Positions 33,271 through 44,510 of a stretch of 64,000 nt of DNA are shown piece by piece. The stretch lies in NCBI GenBank assembly GCA_030525285.1, contig JAUNFA010000006.1, forward strand, positions 1 to 64,000, given 5' to 3'. The first letter of the stretch is position 1; each line of letters opens with the position of its first letter. This DNA comes from Bacillota bacterium. Lineage in GTDB: Bacteria; Bacillota; Clostridia; Peptostreptococcales; Anaerovoracaceae. Both the position numbers and the translations under genes were made by a program. The notes beneath the pieces were generated by a model. It ran no database searches and was not told the origin of the DNA. It worked only from the letters and a program-made list of their open reading frames with translations.

Positions 33271-33312
33271 TCGGAGTATGTAACAAAAGTAATGCTGCAG
33301 AAGGGAGCAACC

Positions 33313-34689
33313 ATGGTAAACAAAGGAAAAATTGATACAAAACTGCTCTTGGCAGCACTTGACTCGTCACATGATGGAATACATATTTTGGATAAAAGCG
33401 GTAATACTTTATATATAAATCAGACCTGCTGTGAAATGGAAGGTGTAATGGCAGAACAGGTGCACAATCATAATGTTAAGGAACTGGTTGAGCAGGGTAT
33501 ATATTCTGATTCTGTAACACTTAAAGTCTTGGAAACAAACCAGGTTGTCAGCATTATGCAAAAGGCATTCAATGGTAGATTACTTCTTGTGACTGGCACG
33601 CCCATATATGAAAATGGCGTACTAGATAAAATTTTTGTAAACACAAGGGATATAACAGAACTTAACGAACTTCGTGAACAACTTTCAAAGGCATCCGATA
33701 CTGCAATCAGATATAAGCAGGAACTGGAAGTTCTCAGACGTGAACGTGCAACCAACAATATTGTTTGCAGAAGTAAAGAAATGGATAAAACACTTAAGAT
33801 TGCGAAAAACGTGGCAGGTGTAGATTCAACTATCCTTATTACAGGGGAATCAGGTGTCGGTAAAGGAATGCTTGCTAAGTTCATTCATGATAACAGTACA
33901 AGGTGTAATGGTCCATTTATAACAATTGATTGCAGTGCAATTCCGGAATCACTTTTTGAATCTGAATTGTTCGGATATGTAAGTGGAGCTTTCACCGGTG
34001 CCGCAAAAGGTGGTAAAAAAGGTCTCATGGAATTGGCTGATGGGGGTACAGTATTTCTTGATGAGATTGGCGAATTGCCTATGGCAATGCAGGCGAAACT
34101 ATTAAGAGCAATTCAGGATAAGGTTATTCTTCCGGTTGGAGGAGACGAATACAAAAAACTTGATGTCAGATATATTTCGGCAACTAATAAAAAGCTTGAG
34201 GATATGGTTGCCGAAGGAACATTTAGAGAGGATCTCTACTACAGATTAAATGTAGTCCCTCTTGAAATTCTGCCATTAAGACAACGCAGGGACGATGTTA
34301 TTCCAATTTTGGCTGAGATTGTAAACAGGATTAATGACAGGTATGGCTGGGAGAAGACTTTTGATGATAAGTTTGTCAGGGAGTGCCTTGAGTATAGTTG
34401 GCCAGGTAATGTAAGACAGCTTGAAAATGTTATAGAGAGGGTAATGGTAAGTTCTGATAAAAATAAAATCAGTGCTGATACGCTCAGTGGGGTAATAGAA
34501 TCTGCAGATATTGTACCGGATACCATTGAAGGGGCATCTGAATATCAGAAACTTATTGCAGATTATGATACAAAATTGTTGATGAGACTTATAGAGTCAG
34601 AAGGTTCAATAACACTTGCTGCAAAAAAGATAAATGTGGCACCGTCGACAATAAGAAGAAAATTACAAAGATATGGGAAAAACAAGTGA
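33313..34689 (+). CDS. Sigma-54-dependent transcriptional activator with PAS sensor
   Basis: 458 aa from the ATG at 33313 (AGAAGGGAG upstream; the frame opens at 33292). Domain order: PAS (about 10-115, [18 protein letters not shown]), a short coiled segment (120-145), AAA+ (about 150-385) with Walker A GESGVGKG from Gly178, the sigma-54 contact loop GAFTGA from Gly225 and Walker [11 protein letters not shown], then a Fis-type HTH at the C terminus ([17 protein letters not shown]). It has no receiver domain, so it should sense a small molecule through PAS. It lies directly upstream of a -24/-12 promoter and is its likely activator. Confidence 0.93.
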
Positions 34690-34791
34690 TGCAAAAGTGC
34701 ACGTAGATGCAAAAATGCACTAAAATGATTATGAACCATAAAAATAAACATTTACACAGATTATGAGGAGAAGCAGAAGTGCAAAAATGCA
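34690..34791 (+). promoter_or_regulatory. Three TGCA-N4-TGCA sites, candidate upstream activator sequences
   Basis: TGCAAAAGTGCA (34690-34701), TGCAAAAATGCA (34708-34719) and TGCAAAAATGCA (34780-34791). The third extends to a perfect 7-bp inverted repeat AAGTGCA-AAAA-TGCACTT (34777-34794). All lie 95-200 bp upstream of the -24 element, the usual place for binding of a Fis-type activator dimer. The first begins at the base after the activator gene's stop codon. Confidence 0.75.
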
Positions 34792-34812
34792 CTTTCGCTT
34801 CTCCTCGTTTTT
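34765..34812 (+). terminator. Terminator of the activator gene, enclosing the third activator site
   Basis: GAGGAGAAGC (34765-34774) pairs with GCTTCTCCTC (34797-34806), followed by GTTTTT. The inner part of the hairpin is the third TGCA-N4-TGCA palindrome. Confidence 0.8.
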
Positions 34813-34886
34813 ATTATGGCAAAACAAGTGAGCTTGTAAACCATTGCAATTACGCGCATCAAGCGTTTTTTTGAAAAAACTTAAAT

Positions 34887-34902
34887 TTGGCATAGATATT
34901 GC
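34887..34902 (+). promoter_or_regulatory. Sigma-54 (-24/-12) promoter
   Basis: TTGGCATAGATATTGC has GG at 34889-34890 and GC at 34901-34902, exactly 10 bp between them, matching TGGCAC-N5-TTGC. Transcription would start near 34914, 31 nt before the first gene of the operon. Confidence 0.9.
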
Positions 34903-34944
34903 ATTTAGTATTAGTAAATACATAACTAAGGAGGGTAATTGACT

Positions 34945-35898
34945 ATGACTAAGTACAGACCATTAAATTCACTTGAAAGTCCAAGATTTGCAGAAGTAAA
35001 GACTTTCATGAGACTGCCATACGTTAAAACTACCGAAGATATTGATTTTGCGGTTGTGGGTGTTCCTTTTGATACGGGAGTTACTTACAGAACTGGACAG
35101 CGATTTGGTCCTAATGCAATCAGAGATATTTCATCACTGATTAAACCATACAATGTACCGCAGGATATAAATGTTGTTGAGGAACTTTCGGGTGTAGATT
35201 ACGGTGATGTTCCTGTTAATCCGGGATTTATTCTTGACTCATATGACAGGATGGTTAATACACTTTCCCCACTGATTGATGCAGGTGTAATTCCTGTCTG
35301 TATGGGTGGGGACCACTCAATTACACTTGGTGAATTGAGAGCTGTTGCAAAGGCATATGGGCCGGTGGCACTTGTTCATTTTGACTCACATTTCGATACA
35401 ATTGATAGCTATTTTGGTGAAAAATACAATCACGGAACAGTATTTGCGAGAGCTGTAGAAGAGGGACTCATTGATGTTGAGCATTCGATTCAAATTGGCA
35501 TGAGGGGAACCTTTTACGACCGAACAGATTTAACCGGATCTGAAGACCTAGGATTCAAAGTAATTACAAGCTTTGAAATGAGAGATATTGGTCTTGCTGA
35601 GGTTAAAAAACAGATAAAGGAAAGGGTGGGAGATGCTAAAGCTTTCCTGACGTTTGATATTGATTTTGTAGATCCGGCATATGCTCCGGGAACAGGAACA
35701 ATTGAGGTTGGCGGATGGACAGGTCCAGAAACTCTTGATCTTGTCAGATCATTAAAAGGTATTGACTTTGTAGGGTATGACCTTGTGGAAGTGATGCCGT
35801 CCGCAGATCCTTCACAGATAACAGCATTTCTTGCAGCGAATATTATGTTTGAATTTATTTCACTTATTGCGCTTCAGAAAAAGGATGGAGGTAAATAA
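34945..35898 (+). CDS. Agmatinase-family ureohydrolase (guanidino-compound amidinohydrolase)
   Basis: 317 aa from the ATG at 34945 (AAGGAGGG upstream; TTG at 34939 is too close). A Mn-dependent arginase-fold enzyme, expected to release urea from a guanidino compound. The metal ligands are in GGDHS, FDSHFDT and FDIDFVDP; the substrate-loop KYNHGTVFARA and RTGQRFGPNAIR are typical of agmatinase, guanidinobutyrase and guanidinopropionase. The family's usual DAHxD is DSHFD here, which keeps the ligands. It is the first gene of the sigma-54 operon and is followed 2 bp later by a creatininase gene. Substrate unproven; agmatine is less likely given the neighbours. Confidence 0.87.
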   Translation: MTKYRPLNSLESPRFAEVKTFMRLPYVKTTEDIDFAVVGVPFDTGVTYRTGQRFGPNAIRDISSLIKPYNVPQDINVVEELSGVDYGDVPVNPGFILDSYDRMVNTLSPLIDAGVIPVCMGGDHSITLGELRAVAKAYGPVALVHFDSHFDTIDSYFGEKYNHGTVFARAVEEGLIDVEHSIQIGMRGTFYDRTDLTGSEDLGFKVITSFEMRDIGLAEVKKQIKERVGDAKAFLTFDIDFVDPAYAPGTGTIEVGGWTGPETLDLVRSLKGIDFVGYDLVEVMPSADPSQITAFLAANIMFEFISLIALQKKDGGK

Positions 35899-35900
35899 TC

Positions 35901-36647
35901 ATGACTGTGATGATGAATGAAATGACATGGCAGGATTTTGCGGATAAGAAGGATGATGCTGTTGTATTTCTTCCTGTAGGTTCAACAGAACAACATGGAC
36001 CGATGCTTCCGCTATCGGTAGACCAGATTATTTCAACCGGATTGGCCAAGATGCTTGCTGAGAGAGTGGACGGAATTGTTGCCCCATGTATTAGTTATGG
36101 TTATAAGTCGGCACCTCTTTCAGGAGGAGGTCCTGCATTTCCGGGAACAATCGACATGAATGCGGTGACGTTGATGAATCTTGTTGAAGATGTTCTTGAA
36201 GAGTTGATTCATGACGGTGTTAAAAAGATTTTCATTATGAATGGTCATTTTGAAAATGAAGCTTTCATTCGTGAATCTATGGACTTGGTTTCAAGAAGAC
36301 ATGAAGATGTAATTCTTTTTGAAAGCAGTTGGTGGGATGTAATGTCTGACGATGTCATGGCTCAAGTATTTGATGAAGTTGAGTATCCGGGAATTGAGCT
36401 TGAGCATGCAGGAATTCTTGAAACTTCAATGACAATGTTCTTCAGACCGGAACTTGTTAAATGGGAAAGATTCGTAGAGGATGGTGTTGAGGCATTTTTG
36501 CCATATGGAATCTATCCGGCTTCAAGATGTGAGGTGTCAGAAACAGGACTTCTGACCACAGCAAGAACTTCATCTTCTAAAAAAGGGAAACTATTGGCAG
36601 ACGATATTACGAACGCATATGTGAAATTAATTGAAGAATGGTTTTAG
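35901..36647 (+). CDS. Creatininase (creatinine amidohydrolase) family protein
   Basis: 248 aa. Creatininase opens the lactam ring of creatinine to creatine. The resemblance extends beyond the general family. It covers LPVGSTEQHG with the metal-binding Glu/His/Asp set, YGYKSAPLSGGGPAFPGT, MNGHFENEAF (His, Glu), the WWDV tryptophan region, ELEHAGILETS and the C-terminal TARTSSSKKGKLLADD, all in the order of Pseudomonas creatininase. One variation is Met in GPMLPL where many relatives have His. GGAGG precedes the ATG. Other members of this family hydrolyse different cyclic substrates, so creatinine is a strong but not certain prediction. Confidence 0.82.
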   Translation: MTVMMNEMTWQDFADKKDDAVVFLPVGSTEQHGPMLPLSVDQIISTGLAKMLAERVDGIVAPCISYGYKSAPLSGGGPAFPGTIDMNAVTLMNLVEDVLEELIHDGVKKIFIMNGHFENEAFIRESMDLVSRRHEDVILFESSWWDVMSDDVMAQVFDEVEYPGIELEHAGILETSMTMFFRPELVKWERFVEDGVEAFLPYGIYPASRCEVSETGLLTTARTSSSKKGKLLADDITNAYVKLIEEWF

Positions 36648-36714
36648 GTTATTGGAAGTTATTGAAACAGTGTGTTAGATAAGGAATTTTTTGATTAATA
36701 AAAGAGGTGATTAT

Positions 36715-38151
36715 ATGGGCAAAAAATTCATAGATAATCCGACAAACGGAGCGGAACTTAGGCTTATTGACTTAGGTTACAAGCAAGAACTTCAGAGAGG
36801 ACTATCGGTTCCGGGGAATGTAATAATGGGACTTGCGAATGTATCTCCTGTAATGGCAGCGTTCACATATGCGCTTGCAGCCTTCGCAACAGTTGGTACA
36901 GCTACAGCAGGAGGTACTCTACTCCAGTGCATCAATGTACTATGTATAGGTTTGATTCTTGGCGAACTGGGATCGATATATCCGGTATCGGGAGGATTGT
37001 ATTCAATCACGAGTTATGTGCTTCCGAAGCCTCTCGTATTTTTAGGAGTATTTAATTTTATGATTCAGGCCTTTATATACATACCGGCAATAGCAATGGG
37101 AGTAGGTGCATATATGCAGATTTTGTTCCCTCAGTTACCACAGGGTACATTAGCATGCAGTATTATATCAGCATCATCAATTATTCTGGCTTTGCTTATT
37201 GGCCTGAATTCAATCATACTTAATAACAGAGTTACTACAGTATTTCTCATTGTTCAGCTAATTATCGTATTCGTATTCCTATACGTATGCTTTGCCAATC
37301 CGGCAAGAAGTCTTGGAGATGTCGTGCTTAATCCGCAGATAATCGGAGCTTCAGGTGAACTTGAGCCGGCATCAATGATAACAATTCTTACAGGCATGGG
37401 AATCATGTGCGCAGCAATAGATGGTTATGGTGCATCACTCGGATTTTCTGAAGAGACTAAGGGATCATGCAAGGGCGTAGGTAAAGCCGTATTCTGTACA
37501 GCTCTCCTTACACTGCTGTTGGTGGGAGCATGTGACGTATTCTCAATGGTGGCAGCACCGGATCTTAAAGAATTCCTTACAGCAGATTCACCACTACTGT
37601 ATGTAATTCAGTCATATATGGGTCCTGTATGGACGACACTACTTAATGTAGGAATTATTATTGCATCATTTGGCTGTAATATAGTGCTCATCAATTATAT
37701 GGCAAGAGTACTGTGGACAGGTGGCAGAGACAGACTCTGGCCGGATGCGATTAACAGACAGTTGTGCAAAGTATCCGGAAAATCTCAGGTACCGTATGTT
37801 GGACTGTTGGTAATTGCAGTTGTTGACTGTGTACTTGTATTTGCATCCGATATTGTAACTATGATTACATTTGGTGGAATGAGTGCAGCAGTTGTATATC
37901 TCCTTATCGCTATTGGCTCGATTAGAAGCAGAATTGTTGATAAAGATATTACAAGACCGTTTAAGATGCCGTTATTCCCGATTCCATCAATTCTTGTCAT
38001 TTGTTTCTTATGTATAGCGATTGGTTCGCAGACACCAAGTGATCTTATGATTGTGGGTATAATCCTTGTGATTGCAATGCTATACTATCTGCTCTATTAC
38101 AGACCAAGAGAAAAGAGAGAAGCAAGAGAAGGAGAAAATAAGGAGGCGTAA
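36715..38151 (+). CDS. APC-superfamily amino acid/amine permease
   Basis: 478 aa from the ATG at 36715 (AAGAGGTGA upstream). About 12 hydrophobic segments, with the APC start QRGLSVPGNVIMGLANVSP and the consensus loop GELGSIYPVSGGLYS in helix 2. The C terminus is charged and cytoplasmic (YYRPREKREAREGENKEA). In this operon it should import the substrate of the hydrolases. The transported compound cannot be read from sequence. Confidence 0.88.
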   Translation: MGKKFIDNPTNGAELRLIDLGYKQELQRGLSVPGNVIMGLANVSPVMAAFTYALAAFATVGTATAGGTLLQCINVLCIGLILGELGSIYPVSGGLYSITSYVLPKPLVFLGVFNFMIQAFIYIPAIAMGVGAYMQILFPQLPQGTLACSIISASSIILALLIGLNSIILNNRVTTVFLIVQLIIVFVFLYVCFANPARSLGDVVLNPQIIGASGELEPASMITILTGMGIMCAAIDGYGASLGFSEETKGSCKGVGKAVFCTALLTLLLVGACDVFSMVAAPDLKEFLTADSPLLYVIQSYMGPVWTTLLNVGIIIASFGCNIVLINYMARVLWTGGRDRLWPDAINRQLCKVSGKSQVPYVGLLVIAVVDCVLVFASDIVTMITFGGMSAAVVYLLIAIGSIRSRIVDKDITRPFKMPLFPIPSILVICFLCIAIGSQTPSDLMIVGIILVIAMLYYLLYYRPREKREAREGENKEA

Positions 38152-38154
38152 TCC

Positions 38155-38769
38155 ATGAATAAAGCAATATTAATAGCCGGTTGTGAGGGCAATGTAGGTA
38201 AGGCAGCAGTAGCAAAATTCAAGGCGAATGGATGGCAGGTAGCCGGCATAGATATCAAGGAGAAAAGTACGTCAGATGTAGACAAATACATTTCCGTAGA
38301 TATTAAAGATACTGAGGCTGTAATTGCGGCTGCTGATGAAATCGATGCTGTTATGCCAATTGACGCTGTATTCAATGCAGCAGGGTATGTGCTGGATAAG
38401 GCATACGAAGATACAACTGTAGATGAATGGCAGGAATTATTAACAACGATTCTTGGGGGAGCGGGAAATCTTTGCAAGGCTGTAGCTCCTAAGATGGTAA
38501 AACGTCATGAAGGCAAAATTATTCTACTTTCATGTGATTATGCAAAACAATCGGATGTGGCTGTTGTAGATGCAGTTGCTGCAAATACTCTGCACGGATT
38601 CGGTAAAAGTTTCGGAGTTGAAATGGCCCCTGAAAACGTCCGCGTTAATGTAATGTATGCGAATACACCATTGGATATCGAATCGGTAACAGAAACGGTA
38701 TTTTATCTGGCGGATAAGGATACATATACATCAGCACAGGTTGTAGCAGTTACCGGGGAAGTGTTTTAG
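38155..38769 (+). CDS. Degenerate short-chain dehydrogenase/reductase-like protein
   Basis: 204 aa, shorter than usual. A Rossmann start IAGCEGNVGKAA keeps the glycine pattern, and FNAAGYV matches NAAG. The catalytic region is altered: LLSCDYAKQSDVAVVDAVAANTLHGF has no YxxxK where SDRs have it. NAD(P) binding is plausible but reductase activity is doubtful. It may be a structural partner of the two complete SDRs that follow. GGAGG precedes the ATG. The gap to the permease stop is 3 bp. Confidence 0.78.
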   Translation: MNKAILIAGCEGNVGKAAVAKFKANGWQVAGIDIKEKSTSDVDKYISVDIKDTEAVIAAADEIDAVMPIDAVFNAAGYVLDKAYEDTTVDEWQELLTTILGGAGNLCKAVAPKMVKRHEGKIILLSCDYAKQSDVAVVDAVAANTLHGFGKSFGVEMAPENVRVNVMYANTPLDIESVTETVFYLADKDTYTSAQVVAVTGEVF

Positions 38770-38780
38770 GAGGTAGTAAA

Positions 38781-39560
38781 ATGAAATATGCTGAAATGAA
38801 AAACAGAAAAGTTCTTATTACCGGAGGCACGCAGGGTATTGGAGAAGCCATGGCTGAGACATTTATAGCCGATGGTGCGGATGTTGTAATAAATGGGCGT
38901 GTTCTCAACGAGAAGGTGCAGAAAGTTTTGGATAGAACTGGTGCAAGAGCTTCTATGGGAAGTATTATGGATCCGGCTACCGCTGAAGGAGTTGTAAAAA
39001 ATGCCGCAGAAATTATGGGAGGACTTGATGTGTTGATTTGCAATGCTGCTGGAATGAGCATGGCACCATATCTTGAAAGTGTTCCTGAAGAATGGTGGTC
39101 TCAGATTAAGATTAATTTGTCTGGTCATATGGCTTGCATTAGAACAGCGCTTCCGATAATGAAGGCAAATGGAGGAGGTACAATTATCCTGACCAGTTCA
39201 TTTTTCGGAACAATCGGTTGGAATAATGCTACAGGATATGGTTCATCAAAGTCAGGATTGCTTGCATTGGGGCAGTATCTTGCTAGAGCATACAAGGATG
39301 ATAACATTAAGGTTTGTACGATTATCCCTGGTGTTATTGATACGCCGCAGTTAAATGTTGATGCTAATGACCTAGGTATTTCACTTGATGAAGTACGTGA
39401 AATGTATGCTAATGACATTGCAATGGGAAGACTTTCAAGACCATCAGAAATTGCAGAAACAGCCCTATACATGGCAAGCGATGCAGGACGAAAGGCGCTT
39501 AACGGAAGACATATCATTGTAAGTGGTGGTGAATACAGATCAACACCATATTATATTTAG
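38781..39560 (+). CDS. Short-chain dehydrogenase/reductase
   Basis: 259-aa classical SDR: cofactor motif TGGTQGIGE, CNAAG, catalytic Ser in ILTSSFFG and YGSSK, and IIPGVIDTP. The R in INGRV after strand 2 hints at NADP(H), but this is weak. Ribosome site AGGAGGTAG. Third-from-last gene of the sigma-54 operon; probable oxidoreductase on a hydroxyl or keto group of the pathway intermediate. Confidence 0.88.
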   Translation: MKYAEMKNRKVLITGGTQGIGEAMAETFIADGADVVINGRVLNEKVQKVLDRTGARASMGSIMDPATAEGVVKNAAEIMGGLDVLICNAAGMSMAPYLESVPEEWWSQIKINLSGHMACIRTALPIMKANGGGTIILTSSFFGTIGWNNATGYGSSKSGLLALGQYLARAYKDDNIKVCTIIPGVIDTPQLNVDANDLGISLDEVREMYANDIAMGRLSRPSEIAETALYMASDAGRKALNGRHIIVSGGEYRSTPYYI

Positions 39561-39588
39561 ATAGGTTGTATATCATAGGAGGAGCGAT

Positions 39589-40347
39589 ATGAAAAAGTTA
39601 GAAAATAGAGTGGCTGTTATCACCGGTGGTAGCCGTGGCATAGGCAGAGGCATTGCAATAGAATTTGCAAAAAATGGTGCTAATATCGCATTATCGTATC
39701 ACTCGAATGAAGCCGCCGCAGCTGAAACTGTTGCAGCGTGTGAAGAGTATGGAGTTAAGGCAATTGCAATAAAATGTAATGCAGGTGTTAGTGCAGAAGT
39801 ACAAGCTATGGCTAAAAAAGTTGAAGAAGAGTTCGGTGCAATTGATATTCTGGTAAATAATGCGGGAACAATCAGCCTTGAGGTAACAGTGGAAGAAATG
39901 GAAGAAGCAGAATGGGACAGAGTTGTTAACACTGATTTAAAGGGCGTATATCTCAATTGCAAATACTTTATTCCGCTTATCAAAGCGCGGAAAGGAGACA
40001 ATGTTGGCAAAATTATCAACATTTCATCGGAACTGTCCAAGAAGGGAAGAGTGGCATATGGCGCATATGCGGCTTCGAAAGGCGGCATCAATTCATTAAC
40101 AATGTGTCTGGCTCTGGAACTGGCTCCGGAAATTAACGTCAATATTGTTGCTCCGGGTCCTATAGAAACCGACATGATTTTGGCTGATATGGCACCTGAA
40201 TGGGTTGAAAAAGAAAAAGACATCCCACTTAAGAGACTTGGAAAAGTTGAAGAAATCGCAGCAACTGCGCTGCTTATCGCATCAGACGACGGGGATTTCT
40301 TCTGTGGGCAGTTCATAAGCCCTAACGGCGGAGCGGTATTCTTTTAA
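39589..40347 (+). CDS. Short-chain dehydrogenase/reductase (FabG-like)
   Basis: 252-aa classical SDR: TGGSRGIGRG, NNAG, NISSELSKKG, catalytic YAASKGG and VAPGPIETDM. It resembles FabG-type 3-oxoacyl reductases, like many catabolic SDRs. AGGAGG precedes the ATG. It is the last gene of the operon, with a terminator at 40411. Confidence 0.88.
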   Translation: MKKLENRVAVITGGSRGIGRGIAIEFAKNGANIALSYHSNEAAAAETVAACEEYGVKAIAIKCNAGVSAEVQAMAKKVEEEFGAIDILVNNAGTISLEVTVEEMEEAEWDRVVNTDLKGVYLNCKYFIPLIKARKGDNVGKIINISSELSKKGRVAYGAYAASKGGINSLTMCLALELAPEINVNIVAPGPIETDMILADMAPEWVEKEKDIPLKRLGKVEEIAATALLIASDDGDFFCGQFISPNGGAVFF

Positions 40348-42470: not shown

Positions 42471-43544
42471 ATGACAAAAGTTGATATTGTATCAGGATTC
42501 CTTGGAGCAGGAAAAACGACTTTCATCAAAGAAATGATTGCGAAGGTGTACAAAGGACAGAAAGTGGTTCTCATAGAAAATGAATTCGGTGAAATCGGTA
42601 TAGACAGTGGGTTTATGAAGAATGCCGGTATAGAAGTGACGGAAATGAACAGCGGATGTATCTGCTGTACTCTTGTTGGTGACTTTGCTCGTTCGCTCAA
42701 ACAGGTGGTTGAGCAGTTTTCGCCTGAAAGAATAGTAATAGAACCATCGGGTGTGGGAAAATTGAGTGATGTAGCTGCAGCGGTGGCAGATGTAAGTATG
42801 GAAGCCGGAATTACGATTAACAGCCGTATCACAGTTGTTGACGGTAAGAAAGCCGGAATGTACATGAAGAACTTCGGTGAGTTCTATAACAATCAGATTG
42901 AAAATGCTACAACTATAGTCATAAGCAGAACGCAGAACATGGATGAGGATAAGCTGAAGGAATGCATTTCTCTTATCAGAGAAAAGAATGAGGAGGCTTC
43001 AATCATCACAACACCATGGGATAAGCTTGAAGGTGAAGCGATAGAGGCTGCTATAGGACATGGACAGAATCTTGAAAAGGAGCTTATGGAAGAATACATG
43101 CGTGAGCATGAACATTACGAACATCACGACCACGACCATCATCATGAACATGACCACAATCACGGTGAAGACTGCACATGCGGATGTCACGACCATGATC
43201 ATCATGAGCACGATCACGACCACGACCACGACCATGATCATCATAAGCACGACCACGATCATCATGCAGATGAAGTTTTTGACAGCTGGGGTATCGAGAC
43301 AGTGCATGTATTTACAAAATCAGGTATAGAAGACATTATGGGTCTGTTTGGAACTACTGATGATTTCGGAACAGTGCTTCGTGCAAAGGGTATCGTAGAA
43401 ATTGAAGACGGTAACTGGGTGGAATTCGACATGGTGCCTGAAGAAGTGGAAATCAGAGAAACAACACCGGATTACATTGGCAGAATCTGCGTTATAGGAG
43501 CTGACCTTAACAAGGACGAGCTTGCCAAGGTATTTGATAAATAG
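42471..43544 (+). CDS. CobW/COG0523-family GTPase with long His/Asp-rich metal-binding loop
   Basis: 357 aa. Walker A GFLGAGKTT, the family CxCC metal motif as GCICC, EPSGVG, and a C-terminal CobW_C domain. Between about residues 212 and 268 the chain is almost entirely His, Asp and Glu, plus a CTCGCHD segment, a likely reservoir or sensor for zinc, nickel or cobalt. COG0523 proteins act as metallochaperones (e.g. ZagA, ZNG1). AGAAGGGAG precedes the ATG. It is followed by a second CobW homologue 18 bp on. The metal cannot be named from sequence. Confidence 0.9.
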   Translation: MTKVDIVSGFLGAGKTTFIKEMIAKVYKGQKVVLIENEFGEIGIDSGFMKNAGIEVTEMNSGCICCTLVGDFARSLKQVVEQFSPERIVIEPSGVGKLSDVAAAVADVSMEAGITINSRITVVDGKKAGMYMKNFGEFYNNQIENATTIVISRTQNMDEDKLKECISLIREKNEEASIITTPWDKLEGEAIEAAIGHGQNLEKELMEEYMREHEHYEHHDHDHHHEHDHNHGEDCTCGCHDHDHHEHDHDHDHDHDHHKHDHDHHADEVFDSWGIETVHVFTKSGIEDIMGLFGTTDDFGTVLRAKGIVEIEDGNWVEFDMVPEEVEIRETTPDYIGRICVIGADLNKDELAKVFDK

Positions 43545-43562
43545 TAAGGAGGCGGGAAGATA

Positions 43563-44510
43563 ATGGATATTCCGGTATATTTATTTACAGGACTCCTTGA
43601 CAGTGGCAAAACTACATTTATCAAGGAGGTAGTAGGAGAAGAGAGCTTCCTTGATCCGGGAGCAACAGCAATGCTCCTGACAGAACAGGGTGAAATCAGT
43701 TATGACGAAGAATTTCTGATAAAACATAATATTGCTGTTGAAGTAATTGAAGACAAAGAAGAGATGAAACCGCTTCTCTGGAAACGTATGGAGATGATGA
43801 ACAAGCCGAAACAGATTCTTATTGAATACAATGGAATGTGGGAGCTGGACGATCTGTTTAACAGCGGAATTCCGGAAAACTGGTTTCTTGCAGGCGTGTA
43901 TTCTACAGTTAACGGTGAAACCATCGACATGTATATCCAGAACATGCGCAAAATGTTCATGGAGCCTTTGAGAACTTCGGACCTTATAATAATTAACAGA
44001 TGTGATGAGAGCATTGACAGGCAGAAGTACAGAAGGAATTTCAAAGCACTGAATCCTCAGGTTCAGGTAGGCTTCGAAAGACCTGATGGTACTATGTATC
44101 CGAATCAGCAGGAAGAACTTCCTTTTGATGTAAATGGAGACAGAATTGTAATAGACGATATGGACTATGGCCTCTGGTATATAGACGCAATGGATGCTCC
44201 GGGAAGATATATGTACAAGGAAATTGAGTTCACGGCGAAGTATTGTGCCAGCAACAATGAGAATATCAAGTATTTCGTACCGGGAAGACACGTTATGACA
44301 TGCTGCGAAGACGATATTCAGTTCCTTGGATACGTGTGCAGCTTTGAGGAACAGCCAGGTTTTGAACACGGTGACTGGGTAAGGGTCGTTGTAAGTTTTG
44401 ATTTTGGTCCATGTGATGTATACGGTCCGGGTGAAGAGGGACCGATTCTTACGCTTATTGATATTAAACCGGCAGAGAAGCCCGAACAGGAGCTGGTATC
44501 ATTCACATAG
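43563..44510 (+). CDS. CobW-like GTPase fused to a YcgQ/DUF1980-like C-terminal domain
   Basis: 315 aa. The N-terminal half is CobW-like (FTGLLDSGKTTFIKE, IINRCDES) but lacks the CxCC motif. The last 100 residues (about 215-315), with EIEFTAKY, FVPGRHVMTCCEDD, GDWVRVVVSF and DIKPAEKPEQELVSF, follow the pattern of the C-terminal domain of YcgQ/TIGR03943 proteins. Those are zinc-regulated partners of YcgR permeases and stand near CobW genes in Bacillus. The TCC pair may bind metal. AAGGAGG precedes the ATG. This fusion with the preceding metallochaperone suggests a metal-delivery pair. Confidence 0.75.
   Translation: MDIPVYLFTGLLDSGKTTFIKEVVGEESFLDPGATAMLLTEQGEISYDEEFLIKHNIAVEVIEDKEEMKPLLWKRMEMMNKPKQILIEYNGMWELDDLFNSGIPENWFLAGVYSTVNGETIDMYIQNMRKMFMEPLRTSDLIIINRCDESIDRQKYRRNFKALNPQVQVGFERPDGTMYPNQQEELPFDVNGDRIVIDDMDYGLWYIDAMDAPGRYMYKEIEFTAKYCASNNENIKYFVPGRHVMTCCEDDIQFLGYVCSFEEQPGFEHGDWVRVVVSFDFGPCDVYGPGEEGPILTLIDIKPAEKPEQELVSFT

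Follow-up and report, generated by a model that had tools for sequence, protein, structure and literature searches.

Creatinine and creatine are abundant nitrogen compounds of vertebrate hosts, and creatinine is used as a marker of kidney function. To our knowledge, the creatinine degradation routes to which genes have been assigned use either an M24 creatinase or a deaminase. The classical pathway, as encoded in genome G172 (locus L047), opens with a creatininase of the TIGR04448 family, and this first step and the proposed intermediates are shared by the operon described here, which lies in a 64-kb window (the whole stretch of DNA that was analysed, contig JAUNFA010000006.1 of the Bacillota bacterium assembly GCA_030525285.1). 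Unlike the classical gene set, this operon contains no M24 creatinase, carries an adjacent arginase-fold ureohydrolase gene instead, encodes a permease of the APC rather than the NCS1 type and includes additional short-chain dehydrogenases/reductases (SDRs). Clusters that combine a creatininase with a cytosine-deaminase-like gene (G308, G886, G961 and G1059) encode creatininases of the same clade (49-53% identical), but their partner is a deaminase-type amidohydrolase that would act on the ring and not hydrolyse the guanidino group. Guanidinobutyrase GbuA (3nio) and guanidinopropionase GpuA (3nip) belong to the same superfamily as the ureohydrolase of the window, have metal ligands in common with it and are, like an agmatinase of solved structure, about 41% identical to it; both act on straight-chain guanidino acids, whereas the window enzyme adjoins a creatininase and its substrate is a proposal. 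The dimethylguanidine and metformin hydrolases DmgH and MefH are likewise ureohydrolases and take substituted guanidines, but they differ in being heteromeric and nickel-dependent, and in their substrates and genomic context. The window locus is here read as a sigma-54-controlled operon for the catabolism of creatinine or of a 2-aminoimidazolin-4-one very close to it, with a probability of about 0.6; coupled ring opening and urea release by its two hydrolases is quite likely, while the odds that creatinine itself is the natural substrate fall slightly short of even.

The creatininase matches the solved Pseudomonas putida enzyme with E about 1e-49 in phmmer (36% identity) and reaches 290.5 bits with TIGR04448, above the curated equivalog cut-off of 235, which bears out the claim of an initial annotation of this DNA that it shares sequence blocks with true creatinine amidohydrolase; it scores below the NCBIfam cut-off for MftE. 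In the alignment, all of Glu34, His36, Asp45, His120 and Glu122 (P. putida numbering), which we take to be the ligands of the binuclear metal centre, are kept, as is Trp154, presumably one of two substrate-gate tryptophans together with Trp174. Its identity to creatininases adjoining an M24 creatinase or a cytosine-deaminase-like gene is 46-53%, and the company kept by this clade appears to be the best argument for function. To survey such partners, creatininase-family loci in a sample of the phylum were split at the TIGR04448 cut-off. Among loci above the cut-off, that of G172 has a cytosine permease and an M24 creatinase (L047_7, E 3e-171 to the solved creatine amidinohydrolase) beside the creatininase; elsewhere the neighbours are cytosine-deaminase-like genes in the four genomes named above, a ureohydrolase in the window type and in G164 and G174, the latter two with BMP-type transport proteins, and a cytosine-permease-like gene as sole neighbour on a 3-kb contig of G213. 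Below it, none of 31 loci has a creatinase, cytosine-deaminase-like, ureohydrolase or cytosine permease partner within about 1.5 kb. Ureohydrolase adjacency thus amounts to 3/6 above against 0/31 below the cut-off (Fisher test by hand, about 0.003, a value to be read with the small numbers and with the inclusion of sequences from the tested loci among the queries). The ureohydrolases of G164 and G174 form a well-supported, separate deep branch only about 30% identical to the window type, so that the pairing with creatininase, co-directional in these two distant ureohydrolase lineages, is either very ancient or of repeated origin. This recurrent partnership makes an arginase-fold creatine (or near-creatine) hydrolase the most economical reading of the ureohydrolase. 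As the initial annotation had noted, M24 creatinase is missing: in the window's genome the top match is 29% identical over a partial stretch of a 257-aa frame, as opposed to the full ortholog in G172, and the operon-bearing genomes give weak matches of 22-30% identity and no ortholog. At L047:6294-15256, the M24 creatinase, creatininase and cytosine permease stand in one row with two genes that resemble MttB methyltransferases by eye. At L048:7522-17853, an apparent operon combines a BMP-type ABC transporter, a GlyA-like protein, a ureohydrolase, a creatininase, a Kbl-type acyltransferase and an NAD-epimerase-fold dehydrogenase, a gene set suggestive of a glycine-linked pathway for a cyclic guanidino compound.

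The arrangement expected from the initial annotation, a PAS/AAA+ activator followed by six tightly packed genes with the ureohydrolase directly before the creatininase, is present, with intergenic gaps of 2 to 67 bp within the operon and a gap of 249 bp, containing the regulatory sites, between activator and ureohydrolase. Non-conservation of the six genes had been named as a refutation; the full order from activator through SDR3 recurs in G036, a member of the same genus, in Anaerovorax odorimutans SL.3.17 (L041) and in G710, which represents another genus of the family, so that this test did not refute the operon as a unit. Gene order and promoter are complete in three further genomes and partial in two more. 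One of the latter, G013 (L052), retains creatininase through SDR3, the upstream part of the contig resembling an assembly join; the other, G538, belongs to another family, and its 3.9-kb contig carries the activator, ureohydrolase and creatininase genes and stops 218 bp past the creatininase (genome 76% complete). At L052:2665-3537 the reading frame of the G013 creatininase runs on into the beginning of an ABC ATPase, probably because contigs were wrongly joined, and no ureohydrolase is present at that locus. Activator orthologs upstream of the operon in L045, L041 and L065 are 51-53% identical, and permease orthologs are 58-82% identical in four operons. Because a close creatininase occurs in just 3 of the 37 genomes tested of the genus, the window's own counted, the operon is an accessory module; its flanks vary from genome to genome, and its G+C content is the same as that of the flanking DNA. 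Judged from sequence comparison, the operon is a real, conserved and regulated unit.

Regulation by sigma-54 is indicated by a -24/-12 promoter, as initially annotated, an adjoining AAA+ activator and an RpoN gene detected in the same genome. The strict -24/-12 pattern has a single match on the + strand of the window, TGGCATAGATATTGCA, and equivalents precede the ureohydrolase in L045, L041, L065 and L066. Three TGCA-N4-TGCA sites had been counted near the operon, and three matches do exist (34690, 34708 and 34780), but the third is at the top of a hairpin (20 bp, -31.4 kcal/mol, z -7.6) with a T run behind it, which probably terminates the activator gene; it is therefore more careful to count two upstream sites and one terminator. 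One site of L041 is likewise placed at a hairpin apex. The orthologous operons in L045, L041 and L065 are likewise preceded by a promoter and two such sites, the sites following directly on the activator gene, while L066 has no palindromes and, by eye, GGCAATTTTGC-like sequences in their place. No sigma-70 promoter outscoring shuffled sequence was detected, and the window contains no tRNA and no Rfam match, riboswitches included. Feature coordinates are collected in Table 1; the ureohydrolase frame extends over 34939-35898 with a probable start at ATG 34945, and the permease probably starts at ATG 36715 and not at 36691, each of the preferred starts being preceded by a GGAGGG- or GAGGTG-like site.

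Table 1. Features of the operon and its control region in the 64-kb window.
Feature	Position	Strand	Evidence
Sigma-54 activator: PAS, sigma-54 AAA+ and Fis-type helix-turn-helix (HTH) domains	33292..34689	+	Pfam PF00158 223 bits; PF00989 PAS; HTH
Two TGCA-N4-TGCA palindromes, probable activator sites	34690 and 34708 (34690..34719)	none	Pattern search
Probable terminator hairpin of the activator gene	34763..34811	+	Fold -31.4 kcal/mol, z -7.6, then T run
Sigma-54 -24/-12 promoter TGGCATAGATATTGCA	34888..34903	+	Pattern search; RpoN encoded in genome
Ureohydrolase (arginase fold), proposed creatine/guanidino-acid hydrolase	34945..35898	+	PF00491 288 bits, cut-off 22
Creatininase	35901..36647	+	TIGR04448 290.5 bits, cut-off 235
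APC-superfamily permease	36715..38151	+	PF13520 E 9e-28
SDR1, degenerate SDR lacking the catalytic Tyr-Lys pair and the substrate loop	38155..38769	+	
SDR2, intact YxxxK SDR	38781..39560	+	
SDR3, intact YxxxK SDR, FabG-like	39589..40347	+	Nearest solved protein FabG 4jro

From these data we infer a scheme that covers both hydrolytic reactions and their order, the substrate, its sensing and transport, and the role of the SDRs. The PAS domain of the activator would sense the ligand and switch on the -24/-12 promoter, and the APC permease would bring the compound into the cell. The binuclear-metal creatininase would then open the cyclic amide of the 2-aminoimidazolin-4-one ring to give a guanidino acid, which would be creatine in the case of creatinine, and the arginase-fold ureohydrolase, replacing the M24 creatinase, would split the guanidino group into urea and an amino acid (sarcosine, if the acid is creatine). 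SDR2, SDR3 and the degenerate SDR1, possibly as a heteromer, would act before or after the two hydrolase steps.

Several observations weigh against creatinine catabolism of this kind. The conversion of creatinine to sarcosine and urea requires no SDR step, and the remark in the initial annotation that SDRs are out of place in a simple breakdown of creatinine still stands, no explanation for them having been found. Sarcosine reductase was considered as the next step and set aside, as no GRDB-type reductase was found in the window's genome (94.7% complete) or in G013; one is present in G036 and in the Anaerovorax genome. The operon permease is not of the NCS1 type found with creatinase, and in the alignment Trp174 is replaced by Ile in the window, L045 and L052, while L041, L065 and L066 keep Trp. 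Among ureohydrolases, human AGMAT (PMC9772407) and a comammox guanidinase (PMC11410670) do not hydrolyse creatine, and no arginase-family creatinase was found in the literature searched. Since DmgH hydrolyses dimethylguanidine (PMC11399263), a disubstituted guanidine such as creatine would nevertheless be possible, and creatine appears to be a chemically reasonable substrate of the ureohydrolase. Because the creatinine route has no SDR step and the window's genome has no GRDB-type reductase, the substrate may carry an extra alcohol or carbonyl group, or the SDRs may act on the released acid.

The SDR trio presents a second, separate puzzle. All five SDR1 orthologs lack the substrate loop as well as the catalytic Tyr and Lys, and among 297 genomes of the order SDR1 exceeds 300 bits in four, all of them operon-bearing, the next best match scoring 102 bits. 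SDR2 (64-88% identical among five operons) and SDR3 (70-83% identical among five operons) keep their catalytic motifs, and a search of 398 phylum genomes gave no further match to SDR2 at E 1e-50. The loss of Tyr-Lys in SDR1, together with the essentially operon-specific occurrence of SDR1 and SDR2, argues for an SDR complex with a non-catalytic subunit, for which BbsCD of benzylsuccinate degradation is a precedent. These enzymes would find a use if the substrate were a modified creatinine-like ring, such as a hydroxylated 2-aminoimidazolin-4-one or a glycocyamidine derivative, whose side chain or released amino acid is oxidised or reduced by the SDRs while the hydrolases open the ring and remove urea. 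The presence of two intact SDRs and one degenerate SDR in 4/4 complete operon copies, the rank of SDR2 and SDR3 among the most conserved operon genes, the operon specificity of SDR1 and SDR2 and the change of Trp174 to Ile in the window's genus are consistent with this, as is the placement of the G164 pair beside GlyA, a Kbl-type enzyme and an NAD-epimerase-fold dehydrogenase, which hints at the handling of glycine or beta-hydroxy amino acids. Such a substrate is nonetheless rather unlikely, as an SDR2 ortholog is absent from G538, where activator, ureohydrolase and creatininase are present (within the limits of its incomplete genome and short contig), and outside the operon family the creatininase clade accompanies plain creatinine and creatine gene types. 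Advanced-glycation hydroimidazolones and creatol were also considered as substrates, and no evidence for them was found.

The metal-ligand motifs of the ureohydrolase (GGDH, DSHFD of the DxHxD type and FDID of the DxD type) are intact in the alignment, and the Phe of DSHFD is found in all four full-operon ureohydrolases and in none of the other aligned relatives. The operon-type enzymes form a clade (support 100/99), from which L066/G538 is excluded, nested in a larger group from the order whose genes have other neighbours. It could be supposed that the two hydrolases do not act consecutively, the ureohydrolase serving linear guanidino acids in the manner of guanidinobutyrase or guanidinopropionase, which are its best solved relatives, and the creatininase serving a separate amide within one regulon; ureohydrolases 54-61% identical do occur in the order without a creatininase neighbour. 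This is improbable in view of the co-directional adjacency to creatininase in two distant lineages and of the distinct clade of the operon type, even if G538 is not resolved with it. A role like that of IolN (3-dehydro-scyllo-inosose hydrolase), with the creatininase homologue opening an SDR-made oxidised guanidino-cyclitol, would suit the combination of SDRs, creatininase-family hydrolase and guanidino hydrolysis but is very hard to credit, as the match to the IolN model NF041098 is weak (77 bits, cut-off 245), the creatininase cut-off is reached and the tree groups the protein with creatininases adjoining creatinase and deaminase genes.

Should the arginase-fold enzyme hydrolyse creatine, genomes annotated with "agmatinase" and "creatininase" would be those of organisms that degrade creatinine, and ureohydrolases would gain a substrate, creatine, which the characterised members tested reject. 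The operon offers a plausible new route for the breakdown of a human waste compound by an anaerobe. As a minority view of our own, a third, previously undescribed creatinine route in anaerobes is tentatively proposed: an enzyme of the arginase fold, brought next to creatininase on at least two occasions, would serve as the creatinase and split creatine into sarcosine and urea, and a decorated creatinine-like substrate would be processed by a heteromeric SDR complex in which one subunit is dead. In Tissierella creatinophila, creatine amidinohydrolase is reported missing, and creatininase and cytosine-deaminase-like genes are both listed (PMC5364220). The idea that its missing enzyme is the one described here is not supported, as in the genomes of another family, those with the strongest creatininases, the partner gene is cytosine-deaminase-like and a close ureohydrolase is absent.

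Further loci with related genes were observed. The window's genome encodes a second ureohydrolase, 54% identical to that of the operon (L079:8984-11437, contig G000:C3), beside a 484-aa permease-like protein without an NCBIfam match, and related ureohydrolases in L071, L072, L073 and L075 also adjoin a gene of similar size. At L068:8944-13661, a sigma-54 activator precedes a ureohydrolase (60% identical to the window's) that has an arylformamidase-like cyclase and an NCS1-like permease as neighbours, an arrangement that parallels the operon but uses another ring-opening family. Near but outside the operon, at 42471-44510 of the window, two adjoining CobW-related GTPases, of which the first contains a long His-rich segment, are likely metal chaperones.

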